Under the pieces are notes generated by a model. That model did no database searches. It had not been told where the DNA came from and saw only the letters and a program-made list of their open reading frames with translations. From assembly GCA_017994695.1 (NCBI GenBank), contig JAGOKF010000006.1, forward strand, positions 1-64,000: a stretch of DNA of 64,000 nucleotides. The letters are read 5' to 3'. Below, piece by piece: positions 347 to 30,139 of the stretch. Both the position numbers and the translations under genes were made by a program. Each line of letters starts with the position of its first letter. Within the stretch, counting starts at the first letter, position 1. This DNA is from Myxococcota bacterium. GTDB lineage: Bacteria > Myxococcota_A > UBA9042 > DTJE01.

Positions 347-468
347 GGGGCCGGCAACGTCCTACTCTCCCACCGGGTCCCCCCGGCAGTACCATCGGCC
401 CTGGAAGGCTTGACTTCTGAGTTCGGGATGGAATCAGGTATGGCCCTTCCGGTATGGTCACCAGCCCC
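347..468 (-). rRNA. rrf: 5S ribosomal RNA
   Basis: The minus-strand sequence has the usual 5S features: paired 5' and 3' ends (helix I), the CCCGAACTCAGAAG-type loop (complement near 412-430) and a GGGAGAGTAGG-type segment near the 3' end. It is the last gene of the rRNA operon, about 70 bases after 23S. The ends are set by helix pairing and may be off by a few bases. Confidence 0.93.
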
Positions 469-492
469 TCGTCTGGAACGACAAGGGAACGC

Positions 493-3611
<3,119 letters not shown>

Positions 3612-3672
3612 AGGTTCACTTGTCAAAGACCGAAACCGGGCGACGGCCAGGTGCCGTCGGCGCTCGCGGGGG

Positions 3673-3745
<73 letters not shown>

Positions 3746-3780
3746 GATGGGAGAACGGCGTCGCCGATCCCCGTCACGGG

Positions 3781-3854
3781 TGGGCCTGGGCAGAATCGAA
3801 CTGCCGACCCCGCGCTTATCAGGCGCGTGCTCTAGCCATCTGAGCTACAGGCCC
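3781..3854 (-). tRNA. tRNA-Ile (GAT anticodon)
   Basis: A 74-base cloverleaf with a perfect seven-pair acceptor stem (GGGCCTG with CAGGCCC), anticodon GAT and a T loop with GTTCGATTC. The CCA end is not encoded. It is the first spacer tRNA after 16S, co-transcribed with tRNA-Ala and 23S. Confidence 0.96.
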
Positions 3855-3913
3855 TGAGCCAGGCCGATGCGGCCATCAAGGACCTGCGAAGATCAGCCCC
3901 GCGGGCAACTCCA

Positions 3914-3926
3914 GTCTTCAAAGAAC
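3914..3926 (-). promoter_or_regulatory. boxA-like antitermination element in the 16S-23S spacer
   Basis: The minus strand reads GTTCTTTGAAGAC, close to the boxA form GCTCTTTGAAAA used by the NusB/NusE antitermination complex. A related GCTCCTTGAAAAC lies in the 16S leader (5613-5625). Having one copy before 16S and one before 23S is the known arrangement; function here is inferred from motif and position. Confidence 0.5.
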
Positions 3927-3936
3927 GAGGCCCGTG

Positions 3937-5629
<1,693 letters not shown>

Positions 5630-20016: not shown

Positions 20017-23000
20017 ATGAGATTTCCCGCCGCCGTCCGTGCCAGCCTGTGCCTCCTTGCCGTCGCCTGCGGCGGGGGTTCCCCCTCCGGCACCCCCGAC
20101 CTCGGCAGCCCCGATGTCCCGGAGGACCAGGCGCCGCCGGTCCCGTCCATCGAGACGCTGCTCGACGCCACGACGATCAAGGCGGGCCAGTGGGTGCAGG
20201 TCTCCTGTTCCGGGTTCGGGTTCGACCGGGACCGGGTGGAACTGGTCGTCCAGGAGGTCGCCGCTCCCCCGGCCCAGGATGCCCCGGCGGCCGATCCCGG
20301 CGCCTCGCCGACGACCCAGGATGCGGCCCAGGCCGACGTCCCCCCGGATCTCCCCCCGGACCTGACCCTCCCTGCCGGCGTGACCCGGGACGGCATGCGC
20401 CTGCGGTTCGAGCGCACCGGCCCCTACCTCGTGGCCTGCTTCGCCTCCGATGCGGACCTCCTGGACCCGACTCCCGCCAGGCTGCTGGTGCGCCCGGGGA
20501 CCGCGGCGACCATCGACACCGCCGTGGACCGCGAGGAAGTGAAGGCGGGGGAATGGGTCGTGGTCACCTGTTCGGGGCAGGACATGTACGGCAACCCCCT
20601 GGAAAGCGAGATGGTGCCCGTCGTGACCCCGCCGGGCGGCGTCCAGATCACGGGTCTGACCTTCCAGCCCACCCGGGCGGGCGAGGTCCAGGTCGCCTGC
20701 GCGGTGAAGGACACGAGCCTCCAGGACCAGACCCCCGCCCGGGTCCGGGTGATCCCGAACCTCCCCCGCCGAATCGTCACCCTCGTGGATCCTCTCTCGT
20801 TCCCCGCGGGGGAAAGCGCCACGATCACCTGCCGCGTGACGGACGGGTACGACAACCCGGTCTCGGACCTGCCGGTCAGCATCCAGGTCCCCCTGGGCCT
20901 CCAACTGGCGGGCCGCACGCTGACCTCGACCCAGGCGGGGGTGTACACGGTCCGGTGCGTTCCCCAGACCGCCGAGTGGAAGTACTTCACCCTGGTGCCG
21001 GCCACCGTCACCGTGGAACCGGGCACCCCGGTCGCGATCTTCCTGGACCCGGTTCCCCGGAAGCCCTACTACGGGCGCAACGAGCAGCTGACCGTGAACG
21101 CCCGCATCGAGGACGCCTGGGGCAACCTCCTGCCCGAAGCCAGGGTCCAGGCCCCGGTGGAGATCTCGCCGCCACGGGGCATCGTCCCCTCGACCCAGAG
21201 CCCCACCCGGGTCTTCACGATGAAGGAGGAGGGGGTCTACCGGATGACCTTCCGGGTGGCCGGCGCGCCCCAGGTCTTCGCCGAACTGGAGGTCCGGGTG
21301 GAGGGCAGCGGGCCGCTGCTGACGCTGATCGTGCCCGAGCGGGGCCTGATGCTGGGCGGGGACAAGCCGTCCCTGACCCTCGAGGGTCAGGTCCACGACG
21401 ACCAGACGGGGATCACCCGCTTCCGGGTGAACGGCCAGGAGGCCTCCCTGAAACTGATCCGCCCCGACGGGACCTTCACCTACCTGCTGAGCCCCCTGAA
21501 GCAGGGACTGAACGTGGTCACCGTCGAGGTGGAGAACGGCGCCGGGATCCGGTCGTCGGCCACCCGGGGCTTCTACTACTCGCCGAAATGGCGGGCCCCC
21601 CAGGACCGGAATCCCGCCGACGCGACGATCCCCGAGGCCATCAAGGCCTTCCTTTCCAAGGAGTTCGTCGACGACCAGGACCACTCGATGCCCCCGGACG
21701 ACCTGGCCACGCTGCTGGAAGTCGTCTTCGCGAACCTGAACCTCGCGGCCATGCTGCCGAATCCCCTGGCCTCGGCGGGCCCCTACCAGGTCAAGATCAC
21801 CCGGCTGCGCTACGACAAGCCCCGCTTCGACCTGTCCCTGCTCGACGGAGGCATGGTCGTCCGGATGGAAATCCCCAACATCGACGTGGGGATCCTGGCG
21901 GTGGGCCAGTGCAACTTCATCATCGACTGGTGCCCCGACGTCTCGGGCACCATCTCCCTGCGCCGCCTGCTGGCGATCGCCCAGATGGACGTGGGCATGA
22001 CCGCGCAGGGGAAGCCCAGGGTCTCGGTCCGGACCCTCCAAGTGCAGCTGGGAGGGCTCGACGTCAACATCGACGGCATCCTGGGAGACCTGCTGGACTT
22101 CCTGGTGGACCTGCTGGTGGACGCCTTCACCGAGACGCTGCGCAGGACCCTGGAGACCCAGGTGAAGGACCTGCTGAACAGCACCCTGGGCGGCCTGTTC
22201 GACCAGCTGACCATCGACCAGTCCATCGACATCCCGGCGCTGCCGGGCGGCCAGGCCCGATCGATCCGCCTGGTGACCCGGCCCACCCGCCTGGACGTCC
22301 ACGGGGAGGGCATCGTCGCGGGGCTCGACACCAGCATCGGGGCCCGGAAGGGGATCACCCGGGACCCCCTGGGGTCCATCGGGAGGGCCGGGTGCCTGCA
22401 GCCGGGGTACGACTCCTCGAAACCGGACCCCTATCCCCTGCCCTGGGACCCGGAAGTGGACCTGGTGGCCTACGACGACCTGCTCAACGAGGCGCTCTTC
22501 GCGCTGTGGTACGCCGGGAGCCTGAATCTGCGCCTGACCGCCGGCGACCTCGGGGACACCGACCTCTCCCAGTACGGGGTCGATGAACTCCGATCGGTGA
22601 TGCTGGACTTCTACCTGCCCCCGATCCTCACCGACTGCCAGATCGTGAAGGACCCCGTGAACCCGGCCCCTCCGGGGCTGGTCCAGGCCCACCTGGGGGA
22701 CCTCTACGTCTTCGCGGACCTGACCCTCTTCGGGAGCCCGCTGCAGTTGGGGCTGTTCGTGCAGGCGAACGCCGAGGCGGTGCTGTCCCTCTCCCGGGAC
22801 CCGGCGACGGGCGAGGCCCGGATCGGAGTGGCGCTCCGGGCCCTGCCGGTGCTGGACATCGAGGTGGTCAGCATCAACGAGGACTTCCCCCTGACCTCCG
22901 AGGACCTGATGGGCATCCTCCAGGGGCAGGTGCTCGACCAGCTGCTGGCGGGCGTGCTGGGGAAGGAACTGGTCTCCTTCGCCCTGCCGGCCATCGATCT

Positions 23001-23118
23001 CTCGGCCCTGGAACCGAGCCTGCCCCAGGGCCTGACCATCCGGATCGACCTGTCCACCCTGAAGCACGAGAAGGGCAACACGGTGGTCACGGGCCGGCTG
23101 GTCGGGGTCTCCCAGTAG
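20017..23118 (+). CDS. Ig-like lipoprotein with possible TULIP/BPI-like half
   Basis: 1,033 residues with a signal ending in LLAVAC. After an Asp/Pro-rich linker (to about 120) come three or four beta-sandwich repeats of about 90 residues (TIKAGQWVQVSCSG, EVKAGEWVVVTCSG, FPAGESATITCRV), each with a VxVxPG-type ending, then a cadherin-like domain (about 430-525). From about 535 to the end the pattern changes: alternating strands, a long amphipathic helix with VDLLVDAFTETLRRTLETQ, more strands and a second similar half ending in LDQLLAGVLGKELVSF and short strands. That resembles the lipid-binding TULIP/BPI architecture, but no family signature proves it. GGAGGAGCC precedes the start. Confidence 0.8.
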   Translation: MRFPAAVRASLCLLAVACGGGSPSGTPDLGSPDVPEDQAPPVPSIETLLDATTIKAGQWVQVSCSGFGFDRDRVELVVQEVAAPPAQDAPAADPGASPTTQDAAQADVPPDLPPDLTLPAGVTRDGMRLRFERTGPYLVACFASDADLLDPTPARLLVRPGTAATIDTAVDREEVKAGEWVVVTCSGQDMYGNPLESEMVPVVTPPGGVQITGLTFQPTRAGEVQVACAVKDTSLQDQTPARVRVIPNLPRRIVTLVDPLSFPAGESATITCRVTDGYDNPVSDLPVSIQVPLGLQLAGRTLTSTQAGVYTVRCVPQTAEWKYFTLVPATVTVEPGTPVAIFLDPVPRKPYYGRNEQLTVNARIEDAWGNLLPEARVQAPVEISPPRGIVPSTQSPTRVFTMKEEGVYRMTFRVAGAPQVFAELEVRVEGSGPLLTLIVPERGLMLGGDKPSLTLEGQVHDDQTGITRFRVNGQEASLKLIRPDGTFTYLLSPLKQGLNVVTVEVENGAGIRSSATRGFYYSPKWRAPQDRNPADATIPEAIKAFLSKEFVDDQDHSMPPDDLATLLEVVFANLNLAAMLPNPLASAGPYQVKITRLRYDKPRFDLSLLDGGMVVRMEIPNIDVGILAVGQCNFIIDWCPDVSGTISLRRLLAIAQMDVGMTAQGKPRVSVRTLQVQLGGLDVNIDGILGDLLDFLVDLLVDAFTETLRRTLETQVKDLLNSTLGGLFDQLTIDQSIDIPALPGGQARSIRLVTRPTRLDVHGEGIVAGLDTSIGARKGITRDPLGSIGRAGCLQPGYDSSKPDPYPLPWDPEVDLVAYDDLLNEALFALWYAGSLNLRLTAGDLGDTDLSQYGVDELRSVMLDFYLPPILTDCQIVKDPVNPAPPGLVQAHLGDLYVFADLTLFGSPLQLGLFVQANAEAVLSLSRDPATGEARIGVALRALPVLDIEVVSINEDFPLTSEDLMGILQGQVLDQLLAGVLGKELVSFALPAIDLSALEPSLPQGLTIRIDLSTLKHEKGNTVVTGRLVGVSQ

Positions 23119-23127
23119 TTCGGGGCC

Positions 23128-25602
23128 CTACCGGAACGACACGCCGTCCACCAGCACGGCCGTGTCGTAGATGCTGTCCCCTTTGTCGGTGCAGTAGAAG
23201 CGCAGGGTCACGGGCACCGGCTCGTTGCCGACCAGGTGGCTGACGTCCAGTTCGGCCTTCTGCCAGTCGGTCATGAACGTGTCGCCCACGTCGAAGTTGA
23301 TGTCCGCCCGCTTCAGGCCTACCGCCTTGCTCCCGCAGGCCGGGCACTTGTCCGGGATGGGAGGGCACAGGTCGTCCACCGCCAGGTTCACGATCTCGTG
23401 CTTCCGGTCGCCGGTCCAGAGCTCGGCCTTGAACGTGTCCTGGTACCGGGTACCGCAGAACTCCTGGAATTCCTCGGAGTAGTACTTCCAGAAGAAGGAC
23501 AGGGTCCGGGCCCCGGGCTGCAGGCAGAAGTGCTGGTCCACCGCGCCGGTCGAAACGGTGTAGCCCAGTCCCGTCGAAATGATCCCCATGAACTTCCCCT
23601 GGACCGGCGTCGCGCCCCCCAGGCGGGTGATCACCCGGCCGTCCCCGGACTGGCCCCAGGCCGTCAGGTCCCCGAACTCGAACGACTCGTTCAGGATGGC
23701 CGAATCGGACACCCAGAGGCCCCGGGCCCCGAAGAGGCGGAACCACGACCCGGGGTGGTCCGGGTCCTGGGTGCCCAGGCCGTAGGCCCCCCCGGCGTCC
23801 CGGCCCTCGGTCATCAGCCGTTCGAAGAACGCCCCGGCGGCCCGGGCCGCGAAGGCCGAGGTGACGCTGCCGGTGAAGCCCGTCACGGCCGAGGCCCCCG
23901 CCGCGAAGAGGGAGGCCGCCAGGGACCCGTTGTAGAGGGTCCGGCAGCCGCCCAGGTGCACCAGGCTGTCCGGGAAGCGGCGGTTCGCCAGGTGGTGGTC
24001 CAGGAAGGCCGGCAGGATGCCCCAGGTCCGGTCCCCCAGCACGATGCGGCCCGCCATCACGTCCACCTGGGTCGGGTCATGGCAGATGCCCGTCGAGGGC
24101 TGGTCCTTGTCCGCCGGCGGATCGGTCAGGATGCAGACCTGCCCCTGGGGGCAGTCGGCACGGCTGGCGCAGGTGCGGTCCTCGGCGGCCAGGTTGCCGC
24201 AGTTGACGGTCTCCCCGGTCCAGATCACCTCCGCGAGGCCCTGGTGATGCCAGCCCAGTCCTTCCTTCACGGCGGGTTCCAGGGACTGGAAATAGACCTC
24301 CCCGTGGGTGGCGATCACGGCCAGGCCGGCCCGGGTCAGCCCCCGGAACCGCTCCAGGCTGGCCGCGGACCCGTTGTAGGAGGACACGTTGTACACCGGG
24401 CAGGGGGTCTTCGCGGCCAGGCTGGCCACCGCCACGGTCTCGTCGTCGGACCCCAGCTCGTCGGCGAAGGGGGACAGCAGCAGGGTGTCCCGGGACCGGA
24501 TGGGGACCCGGGCCGTCAGGCCCGAGGCGGCGATGGCCCCGGGAGGGCCCTCCCCGCCCCGGTCGCCCTCGTAGGGCAGGTTCAGGGCCCCCAGCACCCC
24601 GTCCTGGAACCGCACCCAGATCCCCCCGGTCTCCTCGTCCCCGGCGGCCTGCATCACCTGGGAATCGGCCCGCAGCAGCGCCAGGGCCGTCTTCCGGGCA
24701 TCGCCGACTCCCTTCCCGATCGTCCGGGCGGCCAGGAAGGCCTCCCGGGCATCGACCAGGGTCTTCCGGTGCGCCTGGCAGGTGTCCGGTCCCAGGCGGG
24801 GCAGGCACTCGAAGCGGACCGGCGCCGACCAGGCGTCGCCTCCCTGGGCCGGCACCACCGCCCGGAGATACAGGGCCCCCGGAGCCGAACAGGTCAGCGT
24901 CACCCGCAGCGTGAAGACCCCGTCCCCCTGGATCTCGTCCCCCGACTCCGCCAGCTTGCCGTCGTCCGACATCTCCCCCAGCAGGTTCAGGGACTTGCCG
25001 TCCGCATCGACCTGGTGCAACCGGAGGGTCTTCCCGGTGAGGACCCCGAAGGGACCCAGGGCCAGCGTGGCCAGCACCGGGCGGGAGGACCCCACGAAGA
25101 GGGCCGGAGGGCTCGCCTCCAGGGGGTTCGGTAGCATGAACGAGGTGTTGCGGGTGATCACCAGCGCGTCCGAGACGGCGTTCCCGTCGGCATCCGTCGC
25201 CCGGACCCGGATCCGGTTGTCGCCGGCCTTCAGAGAGATCCCCCCGGCCAACCAGAAGGGCGTTCCCGAGGGGACCTCGATGGGGCCGCTCTGGTCGCCC
25301 ATCTCCCACTGCATCGACGCCACCGGGCCGAAGACCACGCCCGAGAGGGAGACCACGCTGCTGAGGGTCGTGGTCCACCCGTTCCCGGCGGGAGCGGTGA
25401 TGCGGACCAGCAGTTCGGTCGCCGGGGCCTCGGTTCCGGCCCCCGACGGCCCCGAGTCCTCGAGGGGGCGCTGCCGGACGTCCCCCGGATCGGCGGCCAC
25501 CTCTCCCGGCCCCGGGTCCGGGATCGCCACCACGTCCCCGGGAACCGGGGACACCTCGCACCCGGCCAGCACCCACAACCACGCCCAGGACCGCATGCTC
25601 AT
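23128..25602 (-). CDS. Secreted lipoprotein with a CHAT (caspase-like) domain
   Basis: 824 residues with lipobox LAGC (Cys15). Residues 65-155 form an Ig-like domain and 165-270 another beta domain. From about 365 to 620 the pattern fits a CHAT cysteine protease: LAVIATHGEVYF carries the His (433) and VHLGGCRTLYNGSLAASLF the Cys (553), followed by AGASAVTGFTGSV, the typical CHAT helix. About 90 residues with six cysteines are inserted between the two motifs. The last 200 residues look like a jelly-roll binding domain (FEFGDLTAWGQSG, FFWKYYSEEFQEF). GGAAGGA precedes the ATG. A surface protease is inferred; C25-type gingipain relatives are an alternative. Confidence 0.8.
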   Translation of the reverse strand: MSMRSWAWLWVLAGCEVSPVPGDVVAIPDPGPGEVAADPGDVRQRPLEDSGPSGAGTEAPATELLVRITAPAGNGWTTTLSSVVSLSGVVFGPVASMQWEMGDQSGPIEVPSGTPFWLAGGISLKAGDNRIRVRATDADGNAVSDALVITRNTSFMLPNPLEASPPALFVGSSRPVLATLALGPFGVLTGKTLRLHQVDADGKSLNLLGEMSDDGKLAESGDEIQGDGVFTLRVTLTCSAPGALYLRAVVPAQGGDAWSAPVRFECLPRLGPDTCQAHRKTLVDAREAFLAARTIGKGVGDARKTALALLRADSQVMQAAGDEETGGIWVRFQDGVLGALNLPYEGDRGGEGPPGAIAASGLTARVPIRSRDTLLLSPFADELGSDDETVAVASLAAKTPCPVYNVSSYNGSAASLERFRGLTRAGLAVIATHGEVYFQSLEPAVKEGLGWHHQGLAEVIWTGETVNCGNLAAEDRTCASRADCPQGQVCILTDPPADKDQPSTGICHDPTQVDVMAGRIVLGDRTWGILPAFLDHHLANRRFPDSLVHLGGCRTLYNGSLAASLFAAGASAVTGFTGSVTSAFAARAAGAFFERLMTEGRDAGGAYGLGTQDPDHPGSWFRLFGARGLWVSDSAILNESFEFGDLTAWGQSGDGRVITRLGGATPVQGKFMGIISTGLGYTVSTGAVDQHFCLQPGARTLSFFWKYYSEEFQEFCGTRYQDTFKAELWTGDRKHEIVNLAVDDLCPPIPDKCPACGSKAVGLKRADINFDVGDTFMTDWQKAELDVSHLVGNEPVPVTLRFYCTDKGDSIYDTAVLVDGVSFR

Positions 25603-25630: not shown

Positions 25631-25636
25631 ATTATA
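25631..25636 (-). promoter_or_regulatory. Perfect -10 box upstream of the CHAT gene
   Basis: The minus strand reads TATAAT 29 bases before the start codon. No good -35 box is found at 16-18 bases, so an activator or an alternative sigma factor may be needed. Confidence 0.4.
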
Positions 25637-25690: not shown

Positions 25691-27712
25691 TCAGCGAAGC
25701 TCGACCAGGCGGGAGACCTCGGCGTTCTCCTCCACCTCGATCACCACTTCGGTCGATGCGGTCTGGTTCCGCAGCACGAAGACCTGGCGGCCGACGGGGA
25801 CCTCGAAGTGCCGGATGGGCGTCGTGCCGATCTTCCGCCCCTTCCAGTACACGTCCGCCCAGGGCTTCGCGTTGATCGAGACCCGCCCCGTGGCCCGGGC
25901 GGCCGGGGGCGGGGGAGCCTTCTTCTCGACGGTCTCGGGCCGCGGCCGGACCGGTGCAGGGGCGGTCTTCTCCGGCCGGACCGTCACCTCGGTCCTGGGG
26001 GCGACCAGGGTCACCTCCTCGCGCCAGGGGACGAACCCGTCGGCGGTCACCTCGATCACCGCCAGGGCCCCGGATTTCCAGTTCCCCCGGACCTCCCCCC
26101 GGCCATCGGCCGTCGCCGGCTGCCCGTCGATCCGGACCGCGGCCTTCGGGGGCAGCCCCCGCAGGGCGATCCCCGTGACCGCCGGGGCCTCGGCCACCGG
26201 AGGGGGCTGGCGGCCGTCCACGGCGACCTCCGCCGGGGGAGGATTCGCGGGCTGCCCGACGGCGTCGGCGGAGGCCTGCCGGTCCACAGGAACCGCCGGG
26301 GTGGAAACGGCCGCGCCGGGGGACTCGCCGGGTCCCCGGTCCCGACCGATCCACCACCATCCGAACCCGCCGGCCAGCAGCACCGCGAGTCCCAGGATCC
26401 CCCACCACAGGCCGCGGGGTCGGCCGCGGACGCCCCTCTCCTCTTCCCCGGCCTCGGTCCGATCGGGACGGGACTCCCCGGGAGGCGGCGACGGACGCTT
26501 CCGGGCATTCTGCTGGAGGTAGGCGGCGATCTCCTGCTCGTCCAGGGGAAGCGTGTTGCTGCGATGGATTTCCGAGGACCCGCCGGCCCGGGCAGCAGGC
26601 GGGGGAGGGACCAGAGGCGCGGTCGGCCGCGCCGGCGGCTCCGGCGCCGCGGCCGCCGAGGGTGCCGCCGGTTCGGGGACCGGGACGGATTCCGGGGTCT
26701 GGGGAGCCGCCGCCGGTTCGGGGGTCCTCGTGGCCTGGGGCGGGCTCGTCGAGGGCACCTGGGTCGAGGTCCCCCGGTCCAGTTCGTCGGCGAACAGGTC
26801 CTGGAGGTAGGGACCGACGGCCACCTCGTCGAGGCCCCGGGCGTTGCGGAAGATGAAGTTCCGGAGGTCCCGCTCCAGCGTCGCCATGTCGGGGTACCGC
26901 CGGTCGAGGTCCCGCTCCAGTCCCCGGAGCAGGATCGCGTCCAGGTCCGGGGGCACCTCCCCGTTCAGGGAGGAGGGGGCCGGCACCTCCTGGCTCATCA
27001 CGTGGTTCAGGATCTCGAAGTCCGACTCCCCCTGGAAGAGCTTGCGCCCCGTCAGCATCTCCCAGCCGATGGCGCACAGCGCGAAGAGGTCCGATCGCCC
27101 GTCCAGGGGCCGTCCCCGGGCCTGCTCCGGGGACATGTAGGAGCACTTGCCCTTCACGGTGCCGGCCCGCGTCCTGGTGGACCGGGCGGCGGCCTTCGCG
27201 ATCCCGAAGTCCAGGATCTTGGCCTCCCCGCTGAAGGCCAGCATGATGTTGTGGGGGCTGACGTCCCGGTGGACGATGTTCAGGGGTTGCCCGTCGTCGC
27301 TCGTCGCTTCGTGGGCATGCTTCAGCCCGGCGGCGATGTCCGCGAGGATCTGGGCGGTCCGGACCGGGGTGATCCGCTTGCCGGTCCTGATCCCCCGGTC
27401 CAGGACCTTCCGGAGGTCCCGGCCGTTCACGTACTCCATCGCGATGTAGTAGAAGTCGTCGCACCGGTCGAAATCGTAGATCTGGACGATGTTCGGGTGG
27501 TGCAGCCGCGCCGCGATCCGGGCCTCGTCGATGAACATCGTGACGAAGGCCTCGTCCTCGGAATAGGTGGGCAGGATCCGCTTGATCACCACGTCGCGCT
27601 GGAAGCCCTGGGCCCCCTGGACCTTGGCCAGGAAGATCTCGGCCATGCCCCCGACGGCGATCCGCCGGATCAGCAGGTACTTCCCGAAGACCTGGGGCTG
27701 GGTGCCGCTCAT
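25691..27712 (-). CDS. Ser/Thr protein kinase with PEGA domains
   Basis: 673 residues. The N-terminal kinase domain (about 10-275) has all key motifs: the Gly loop AVGGMAEIF, VVIKRI (ATP lysine), FIDEARI (partner Glu), HRDVSPHNIML (catalytic loop), DFGIAKA (metal) and SPEQARG. A Pro/Ala-rich linker follows, then one transmembrane helix (LGLAVLLAGGFGWWW) and two PEGA-type beta domains outside the membrane (about GLPPKAAVRIDGQP and ADVYWKGRKIGTTPIR). It is the typical deltaproteobacterial receptor kinase: external sensing, internal phosphorylation. ATG at 27712 is preferred over an in-frame GTG nine codons upstream. Substrates are unknown. Confidence 0.95.
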   Translation of the reverse strand: MSGTQPQVFGKYLLIRRIAVGGMAEIFLAKVQGAQGFQRDVVIKRILPTYSEDEAFVTMFIDEARIAARLHHPNIVQIYDFDRCDDFYYIAMEYVNGRDLRKVLDRGIRTGKRITPVRTAQILADIAAGLKHAHEATSDDGQPLNIVHRDVSPHNIMLAFSGEAKILDFGIAKAAARSTRTRAGTVKGKCSYMSPEQARGRPLDGRSDLFALCAIGWEMLTGRKLFQGESDFEILNHVMSQEVPAPSSLNGEVPPDLDAILLRGLERDLDRRYPDMATLERDLRNFIFRNARGLDEVAVGPYLQDLFADELDRGTSTQVPSTSPPQATRTPEPAAAPQTPESVPVPEPAAPSAAAAPEPPARPTAPLVPPPPAARAGGSSEIHRSNTLPLDEQEIAAYLQQNARKRPSPPPGESRPDRTEAGEEERGVRGRPRGLWWGILGLAVLLAGGFGWWWIGRDRGPGESPGAAVSTPAVPVDRQASADAVGQPANPPPAEVAVDGRQPPPVAEAPAVTGIALRGLPPKAAVRIDGQPATADGRGEVRGNWKSGALAVIEVTADGFVPWREEVTLVAPRTEVTVRPEKTAPAPVRPRPETVEKKAPPPPAARATGRVSINAKPWADVYWKGRKIGTTPIRHFEVPVGRQVFVLRNQTASTEVVIEVEENAEVSRLVELR

Positions 27713-27808
27713 CCCGTCACCGAAAACCGGCGCGGCCACATCTTACCACCGCTGGCGCAGAAAAGCCCTCATGGAAGCATCGGAGGCCCGGGAGGCGGAC
27801 GTGGGGCC

Positions 27809-29974
27809 CTACCGGCGGAACGGCCCCGATCGCCCCGGGAGGCCCCGGCCCGAGTCCCGGGGACGGGGCGGCACATAGGTCGGCGGCGGCGTGGACTGGG
27901 AACCGGAGGACGGGGCGGGCGAGGGCCGGAACGAGGGACCGATGGACCGCGAGGGGGTCTCCGTCCGGTCCGGGACCCTCCGGCGCTCCTCCGGCCGCAC
28001 CTCCGAAGGGCGGGGAACGGGACGATCCGGCACCTCCCGACGCAGGTCCGACGGGCGCGGCGCGGAACGATCCGGCACCTCCCGACGCACCCCGGGGGCC
28101 GGGGAGGGCCGCCAGGGGGACTCCTCCGGTTCCGTGGGGCGTTCGATCCTCCCGGGAACCGGCCTCTCGCGGACTTCGGGATCGGCCCAGGTCGGCCGCG
28201 GCGACGGGCGGTCGGGAACCTCCGGCCGCGTTTCCGCCGGGCGGGGAGCCGAACGATCGGGCATTTCCGGCCGGACGTCCGAGGGGCGCGGGACCGGACG
28301 ATCGGGCACCTCCCGCCGCACCCCCGGGTCCCGGGAGGGCCGCCAGGGGGACTCCTCGGGCTCGGCGGAGCGTTCGATCCCCCCGGGTACCGGCCGTTCG
28401 CGACCCTCGGGATCAGTCCACGTCGGCCGCGACGACGGAACGGGCCGGGGAGAGGGATTCACGACTCCCTGATCCCGCCTGGGGACGGGCCGGTCGGGAC
28501 CCGCGGTCCCCGAACGGACCTCCGAGGGACCCGCCTCCCGGCCGAAATCCACCCTCCGGGGTTCCGCCCCCCCACCGGCGAGGTCCCGGGGCGTCCATCG
28601 CCGCAGCACCTGCCGGTCCTCGCCCACCTGGGTCGGCGGCATCGCCACGCCCCGATCGGGCCGGGTCCGCTCGGGCCGGGCGGCCGTCCGGACCACCGAG
28701 TCCGCCAGGGAGGTCCGGACGCCCGCCCGATCCTCCCCGTCGCTCCCGAGGCGCTGGCGGATGTTCCGGGAGAGATCCCGGTACTCGGCCGGCGCCTCGA
28801 AGACCGGCCGGACCGGCTCGAACTGCTGCCGGGCGTCCCGGCCCTCGCCGATCGACACCCGCTTCAGGGGCACTTCCTGGGGTTCGATGCCGGTCCTTTG
28901 GGCAATGAAGGCCTTTCCCGCCGCGGGATCCTTGCCGCCACCCGGCACCGGTCCGACGGCGCCGCGCTGGACGGCGCTCTCCATCACCCGCCCGACCTGG
29001 CCCGGGTCCCGCACCAGCACCTTCGACAGGTCGGCCGTGGCGTGCGGGCTGGCCGACGGACCTCGGCCGCCCCTCCCCGGGGGCGACGGGTGCCGGCCGG
29101 AGGCGTAGAAGTCCTCCTGGCGAACCATCACCGCCCCGTGGTGCCGCCGCCCCTCCCGGCGGCCGTCCCGCCGGCCGGCCCAGTAGCCCGCCCAGTAGCC
29201 GTCGTCGTAGCCGTGGGCGTAGCCGCGCCGGTACCCGTGGTGCCATCCCGAGTCGTAGGGCCACCAGCCCAGGAAGTCCCCGACGAAGAAGAAGGTCACC
29301 ACCGCGGGGCGCCAGACCCACAGGGGATCCGGGACCCAGACCCAGCCGTAGATCCGGTGGTGGCGCCAGTGGCCGTAGTGGTCCGTGACGAATCCCCAGG
29401 GGTCGTAGGAGTACCAGGTCCAGCCGAAGGACGTCCAGTACCAGTACCCCCGGGTGTAGGGGCTCCAGTCGTCCACGTAGGCGTAGGGGACGAACACCCG
29501 TTCACCCCCGATCCAGGTCCACCAGCCGAAGCCCCCCAGCCGGTCCTCGAAGGCGCCGGTCCGGTCGGTCCGCTGGAGGACCAGGGTGTCGGAACCTCCC
29601 CCCTCCCGGGCCCGCACCTCGATCCGGATGGTCCGGGGCCCGTTCCGGGGGACGTAGTAGTTGACCCCGTAGTCGGTCACCTCGAACCGGGTGTCCCGCC
29701 GGCAGTCGGTCCGGGGATCGCAGGCGGCCGAGGACCCGTCCCGGGCCAGCCACAGGAAGTCCTCGACGGGGCGATAGGCGTAGTCCAGATTCCCGTCCCG
29801 GTCCCGGAATACCTCGTCGGCCACCAGGCTCACCACCTGTCCGGGCCAGACCTCGACGGGGCCCGGGGGACCGTCCAGGAACTTCCCGTCGATGGAGATG
29901 ATGCGGATTTCCTGTGCCGCGGCCGACATCCCGGCCAGGCACATCCCGACGACCACCAGGGCGACCCTTGTCAT
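27809..29974 (-). CDS. Trp/Tyr-rich secreted protein with Pro/Arg repeats (DUF6600-like)
   Basis: 721 residues with a cleavable signal peptide ending AAAQ. Residues 20-130 are a beta domain. Residues about 145-270 are packed with Trp, Tyr, His and Gly in YGYW/VWVPDP style (YTRGYWYWTSFGWTW, HHRIYGWVWVPDPLWVW), as in DUF6600 and YXWGXW-repeat proteins of this group. A hydrophilic middle follows. The end is highly basic and proline-rich and contains a 77-residue direct duplication. Function is unknown; an envelope or matrix role is likely. The upstream reading frame continues, but the ATG at 29974 starts the signal peptide. Confidence 0.83.
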   Translation of the reverse strand: MTRVALVVVGMCLAGMSAAAQEIRIISIDGKFLDGPPGPVEVWPGQVVSLVADEVFRDRDGNLDYAYRPVEDFLWLARDGSSAACDPRTDCRRDTRFEVTDYGVNYYVPRNGPRTIRIEVRAREGGGSDTLVLQRTDRTGAFEDRLGGFGWWTWIGGERVFVPYAYVDDWSPYTRGYWYWTSFGWTWYSYDPWGFVTDHYGHWRHHRIYGWVWVPDPLWVWRPAVVTFFFVGDFLGWWPYDSGWHHGYRRGYAHGYDDGYWAGYWAGRRDGRREGRRHHGAVMVRQEDFYASGRHPSPPGRGGRGPSASPHATADLSKVLVRDPGQVGRVMESAVQRGAVGPVPGGGKDPAAGKAFIAQRTGIEPQEVPLKRVSIGEGRDARQQFEPVRPVFEAPAEYRDLSRNIRQRLGSDGEDRAGVRTSLADSVVRTAARPERTRPDRGVAMPPTQVGEDRQVLRRWTPRDLAGGGAEPRRVDFGREAGPSEVRSGTAGPDRPVPRRDQGVVNPSPRPVPSSRPTWTDPEGRERPVPGGIERSAEPEESPWRPSRDPGVRREVPDRPVPRPSDVRPEMPDRSAPRPAETRPEVPDRPSPRPTWADPEVRERPVPGRIERPTEPEESPWRPSPAPGVRREVPDRSAPRPSDLRREVPDRPVPRPSEVRPEERRRVPDRTETPSRSIGPSFRPSPAPSSGSQSTPPPTYVPPRPRDSGRGLPGRSGPFRR
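27976..28437 (-). repeat. 231-bp tandem duplication inside the Trp/Tyr-rich gene
   Basis: Two adjacent copies with an offset of exactly 231 bases (77 codons), for example 28078-28206 against 28309-28437. Each encodes RPTWxDPExRERPVPGxIER followed by PEESPWRPS and several REVPDRPVPRPS repeats of about 15 residues. The copies differ at scattered bases, so the duplication is not recent. Confidence 0.85.
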
Positions 29975-30027
29975 GGCGCACCTCCCGGGCGAACTGCCGC
30001 CGCTCCGACGAGACACCCCGCGGGGAT

Positions 30028-30056
30028 ATTCTGTGCCCCGGGCCGGGGGATGCCAA
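30028..30056 (-). promoter_or_regulatory. Promoter of the Trp/Tyr-rich gene
   Basis: Minus strand: TTGGCA (complement 30051-30056), 17 bases, CAGAAT (30028-30033), followed by GGGAGGTGCGCC before the ATG at 29974. Confidence 0.45.
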
Positions 30057-30139
30057 GGGCCACCCCGGACCCAGGGACGAAGGAACCGGACCATCAACCG
30101 GGACGGGCAACGCCATCGGGTCCCAGTGCAGGGGCGGGG

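Follow-up and report, generated by a model that had tools for sequence, protein, structure and literature searches.

The gene at positions 23,128–25,602 on the reverse strand of the window, by which is meant the whole 64,000-nucleotide stretch of Myxococcota DNA analysed here, encodes an 824-residue lipoprotein with a CHAT-like domain. The protein is probably an extracytoplasmic, lipid-anchored cysteine peptidase whose family would be the sister of CHAT within clan CD and have the caspase-hemoglobinase fold. In the literature found, the best-described CHAT proteases (Craspase/Csx29 and the separase-like enzymes) work inside cells, and no description of a lipoprotein CHAT was found in the openly licensed literature, which is weak evidence of novelty.

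The gene is defined by its open frame, its homologues and its dN/dS, with an in-frame ATG ten codons upstream, at 25,632, as an alternative start; all the features of the protein described below lie on the reverse strand. The N-terminus, MSMRSWAWLWVLAGC (25,558–25,602), is a short signal peptide with the lipobox LAGC, as in bacterial lipoproteins, in which Cys15 would be the lipidated residue. The corresponding column holds a Cys in 46 of 52 homologues in the family alignment, which supports the assignment as a lipoprotein made in an earlier, sequence-only reading of this DNA; the gene, strand, coordinates, lipobox, His433 and Cys553 given there are all as found in the sequence. Exposure at the cell surface is suggested by these sequence features, and the protein could equally sit on the periplasmic face of the membrane.

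The catalytic domain, of the clan CD type, spans residues 345–640 (23,683–24,570) and is delineated by its profile match to CHAT. Within it, His433-Gly434-Glu435 (24,298–24,306), embedded in AVIATHGE, forms an HG motif with the putative catalytic His, and Leu550-Gly-Gly-Cys553 (23,944–23,955), within SLVHLGGCRTLYNG, aligns with the LsAC motif of CHAT and carries the putative nucleophile. H433 and C553 are each kept in 48 of 52 sequences of the family alignment, and among 88 aligned homologue domains the His is present in 83, the Cys in 84 and both in 83. The gene is under purifying selection: against a 90% identical homologue dN/dS is 0.15 overall, 0.125 in the protease domain and 0.147 in the insert described below. 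This overall value and the joint retention of the two residues indicate that neither the gene nor its motifs are a product of chance.

The exceptions are informative. Four homologues (L033, L034, L044 and L050) have lost both residues; all come from one taxonomic family and form a single clade in the tree (support 100/98). The fifth, L103, keeps the Cys, and its His, in SSHGDA, is merely misaligned. The His column is also invariant in ten remote relatives, which are about 20% identical and in which no columns other than H, G, V, C and G are invariant. Near-invariance combined with loss only in concert, in one clade, is the pattern of an active-site dyad, and we infer that H433 and C553 form the catalytic pair. 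Cleavage by Csx29 depends on their counterparts there, H615 and C658 (PMC10028731). The same pattern makes it improbable that the protein uses a CHAT-like fold, with Cys and His kept for structure, as a surface adhesin or receptor that catalyses nothing, even though every neighbouring domain is of an adhesive or anchoring kind and four catalytically dead paralogues have been retained. In L033, L034 and L044 an intact copy has the dead one immediately downstream, in the same orientation; these tandem active/dead pairs occupy 2,933–8,377 of L033, 2,158–7,671 of L034 and L044/L244, and a dead copy is also present in L050. AlphaFold2 models calculated from three-row alignments (the window protein, L031 and L032) are of low confidence, with mean pLDDT values of 43 and 35 and the catalytic domain mostly at 20–50.

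To which peptidase family, then, is this domain most closely related? In Pfam searches the window protein gives no CHAT match and passes no peptidase model. Weak CHAT (PF12770) matches occur in five of 40 family members (best E 0.0065), falling on the Cys half where inspected, and none of the 40 reaches the gathering cut-off. The relationship emerges from profile–profile comparison by hhalign, with alignments built from the relatives' genomes and with E-values that are those of single comparisons, not database searches. The family profile gives E = 5.7e-5 against CHAT, 0.026 against C25, 0.17 against C14 and 0.53 against C11. The family without its insert, combined with the remote relatives, matches CHAT at E = 4.4e-8 (prob 95), with the H-G and C in register, and C25 at E = 0.004. 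In the CHAT controls 100 column shuffles scored at most 18.4 against 60.2 for the real comparison, reversed CHAT scored 22.6 and the protein's remaining domains no more than 17.1; for C25 the shuffled maximum was 20.7 against 28.2. C14 and C11 align with the family only over short, motif-sized stretches, nothing comparable to CHAT, and the remote relatives alone match C14 at motif level (E = 1e-4 over 12 columns). A search of the PDB found no sequence relatives of the protein.

The family is therefore best read from its sequences as a sister of CHAT and not as a Pfam-recognised CHAT. The earlier call, made from the two motifs, is now backed by the profile match, by the paired conservation and loss of His and Cys, and by a family HMM that matches, in register, proteins which Pfam itself scores as CHAT at 1e-37 and 3e-18; the profile comparison proposed with that call has CHAT as the closest family (E = 4e-8), well ahead of C25. 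With CHAT, including the Csx29/TPR-CHAT of Craspase, the family shares the hydrophobic strand-HG and strand-C motifs, and also the GA-x-x-V-x-G and helical stretch that follow them. Unlike CHAT, it is exported as a lipoprotein, lacks a Pfam-level score, carries a Cys-rich module between His and Cys and has choice-of-anchor domains on both sides. It also lacks TPRs, none being matched by Pfam in 40 members, although TPRs are common in CHAT proteins without being universal.

A gingipain-type (C25) peptidase, the alternative to a CHAT relative, would share the same clan motifs, and C25 peptidases are extracellular enzymes with jelly-roll adhesin domains, a layout much like the present one. Moreover, the remote relatives alone match C25 at E = 0.0007, and genuine C25 genes, distinct from the CHAT-like gene, are present in 27 of the 53 genomes that were searched, including the window's own. 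This identity is nevertheless unlikely for the family itself, given the far better E-values for CHAT in both comparisons and the absence of a C25 Pfam match in any of 40 members. The sister-of-CHAT reading still leaves gingipains (C25, PF01364), as extracellular clan CD cysteine peptidases with beta-sandwich domains, a probable analogy for how the family works; their profile match is much weaker than that of CHAT and no C25 model matches, and they depend on type IX secretion where the family has a lipid anchor.

Between the two motifs lies a Cys-rich insert (residues 466–508; 24,079–24,207) with C468, C478, C484, C490 and C507, all five of which are present in 73 of 88 homologues. A few members give weak matches to Myxo_Cys_RPT, Dickkopf_N and DX, and the insert has the CxxxxxCxxGxxC...GxC pattern of the TIGR04201 Myxo_Cys_RPT and Dickkopf_N-like repeats. 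On this resemblance it is a known Myxococcota (Myxococcus-type Cys-repeat) module of about 40 residues; unlike the repeat arrays of TIGR04201, it is embedded inside a catalytic domain. The sequence-only reading had proposed about 90 extra residues with six cysteines. The Cys-rich piece is real, but five cysteines lie strictly between the motifs and only about 40 residues are removable. The distance from H433 to C553 is 120 residues, against 41–89 in the true CHAT domains compared; it is 83–94 in the natural insert-less members and 106–135 in the rest. The remaining extra length is a loop around W451/E458, which is partly present in the insert-less relatives too. The insert is absent from L035, L036 and L042, though they have the overall architecture common to the family, and is reduced and differently spaced in L037–L039. 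As L035, L036 and L042 and the remote insert-less relatives are basal in a midpoint-rooted tree, a single gain of the insert inside the class is suggested.

The catalytic core is flanked by modules of an anchoring type. Residues about 65–275 (24,778–25,410) comprise a Glucodextran_B-like Ig domain followed by a choice-of-anchor-X-like domain, recognised from sub-threshold Pfam and NCBIfam matches in several members and from near-invariant Asp columns (D213-x-G215, D222, D227); choice-of-anchor X (NF041940) matches 12 of 40 members, mostly below cut-off. A conserved C275 directly precedes a helical linker (residues 276–344; 24,571–24,777) that contains an invariant W329 in the alignment and has helices predicted in a full-length AlphaFold2 model. 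The C-terminal domain (residues 641–824; 23,131–23,682), with conserved C693, C716, C746, C753 and C756, resembles choice-of-anchor L and MAM domains, and NF038133 (choice-of-anchor L) matches it in 34 of 40 members, again mostly below cut-off; the earlier reading had called this beta-rich domain jelly-roll-like. NF038133 and NF041940 describe anchoring modules only, and linkage to a CHAT-like core falls outside their description.

In related genomes this C-terminal domain also sits at the end of large surface proteins that are otherwise unlike one another, an arrangement that raises the idea of a transpeptidase or sorting enzyme, PorU-like or like the legumain ligase, that trims and attaches surface proteins with this C-terminus. 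PorU is a clan CD enzyme with ligase activity. Legumain, also of clan CD, has ligase activity according to PMC9604545. The idea seems doubtful, however, as the putative sorting enzyme carries the choice-of-anchor-L domain itself, targets bearing that domain were not found co-localised with its gene, and no cleavage motif was identified. One protein capped by this C-terminal domain, encoded at 177–6,632 of L247, has 2152 residues and 55 Dicty_CTDC repeat matches.

The distribution of the family is narrow. A domain profile search of 379 genomes of the phylum finds it in 48 of the 52 genomes of the window's class, usually in one to three copies per carrying genome, and in the class the homologues are full-length proteins sharing one architecture wherever the contig is long enough. 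Of the four class genomes without it, two are only 67% complete. In the rest of the phylum no more than ten genomes give matches, all weak; those traced are either genuine CHAT proteins (L108, and inside the class L109) or remote relatives (L103–L106, L110, L111 and L115), of which L105, L106 and L110 at least bear a lipobox themselves. Of 189 genomes searched with a profile of the remote relatives, only six from outside the class gave a match. Among named records the nearest are MAGs of Myxococcota; no relative was found in the plasmids searched or the viral contigs scanned, and anti-phage system models gave no convincing match. L110 and L115, from other Myxococcota, encode FG-GAP-repeat proteins with Glucodextran_B domains and a remote, insert-less form of this catalytic domain that Pfam leaves unannotated. 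In L241 a family member (1,303–4,041, reverse strand) is broken by a TGA stop and is either a pseudogene or an assembly error.

How might such a protein operate? The lipid-anchored putative peptidase would use the C553/H433 dyad on its CHAT-type core, while the Ig-like/choice-of-anchor-X and choice-of-anchor-L domains would display it at the surface of the cell and attach to substrate or to the cell envelope. The Cys-rich module, presumably disulfide-bonded, would be carried close to the active site by a loop lying between the catalytic strands, where it could gate access or recognise partners. The Asp-rich loop DxG...GD...GDG, which is conserved, may be a Ca2+ site. Activation by a ligand or by Ca2+ is described for several members of clan CD (PMC4357240), and the near-invariant acidic loop (D213, G215, D222, D227) may serve such a purpose. 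The likeliest job would be to process or shed envelope proteins or secreted proteins by limited cleavage, in the manner of gingipains, rather than to signal cell death. Near-universal carriage in one uncultured Myxococcota group suggests that a caspase-type enzyme is probably used outside the cell. More tentatively, this near-universal and perhaps undescribed family of lipid-anchored CHAT-type proteases may constitute an extracellular proteolytic system of one Myxococcota class, in some lineages with an adjacent dead paralogue as regulatory partner in an active/pseudo-protease pair. If the lipid-anchored branch holds, the caspase-type fold would reach into protein processing at bacterial cell surfaces beyond the gingipains, names would go to large proteins that now score below every peptidase model, and the family would provide a tractable example of active paralogues paired with dead ones.

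The genes around the CHAT-like gene recur over a limited range. Immediately upstream on the same strand, at 25,691–27,739, is a Ser/Thr protein kinase with a PknB-like catalytic domain (Pkinase, E = 1e-34), a possible operon partner, whose homologue adjoins the CHAT-like gene in five other genomes of the same family. The convergent neighbour (20,017–23,118, forward strand) is a 1033-residue lipoprotein that has Ig-like repeats and weakly resembles LBP/BPI/CETP; its homologue adjoins the CHAT-like gene in seven other genomes of the family. The survey of neighbouring genes that had been proposed thus bears out shared neighbours within the taxonomic family but, outside it and across the class, no constant partner or substrate gene is seen. 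Further upstream, also on the reverse strand, at 27,809–30,097, is a 762-residue DUF6600-domain protein that is found near the CHAT-like gene in five other genomes. Finally, a complete rRNA operon (16S, two tRNAs, 23S and 5S) occupies 349–5,535 on the reverse strand and accounts for the lower GC content at the start of the window.
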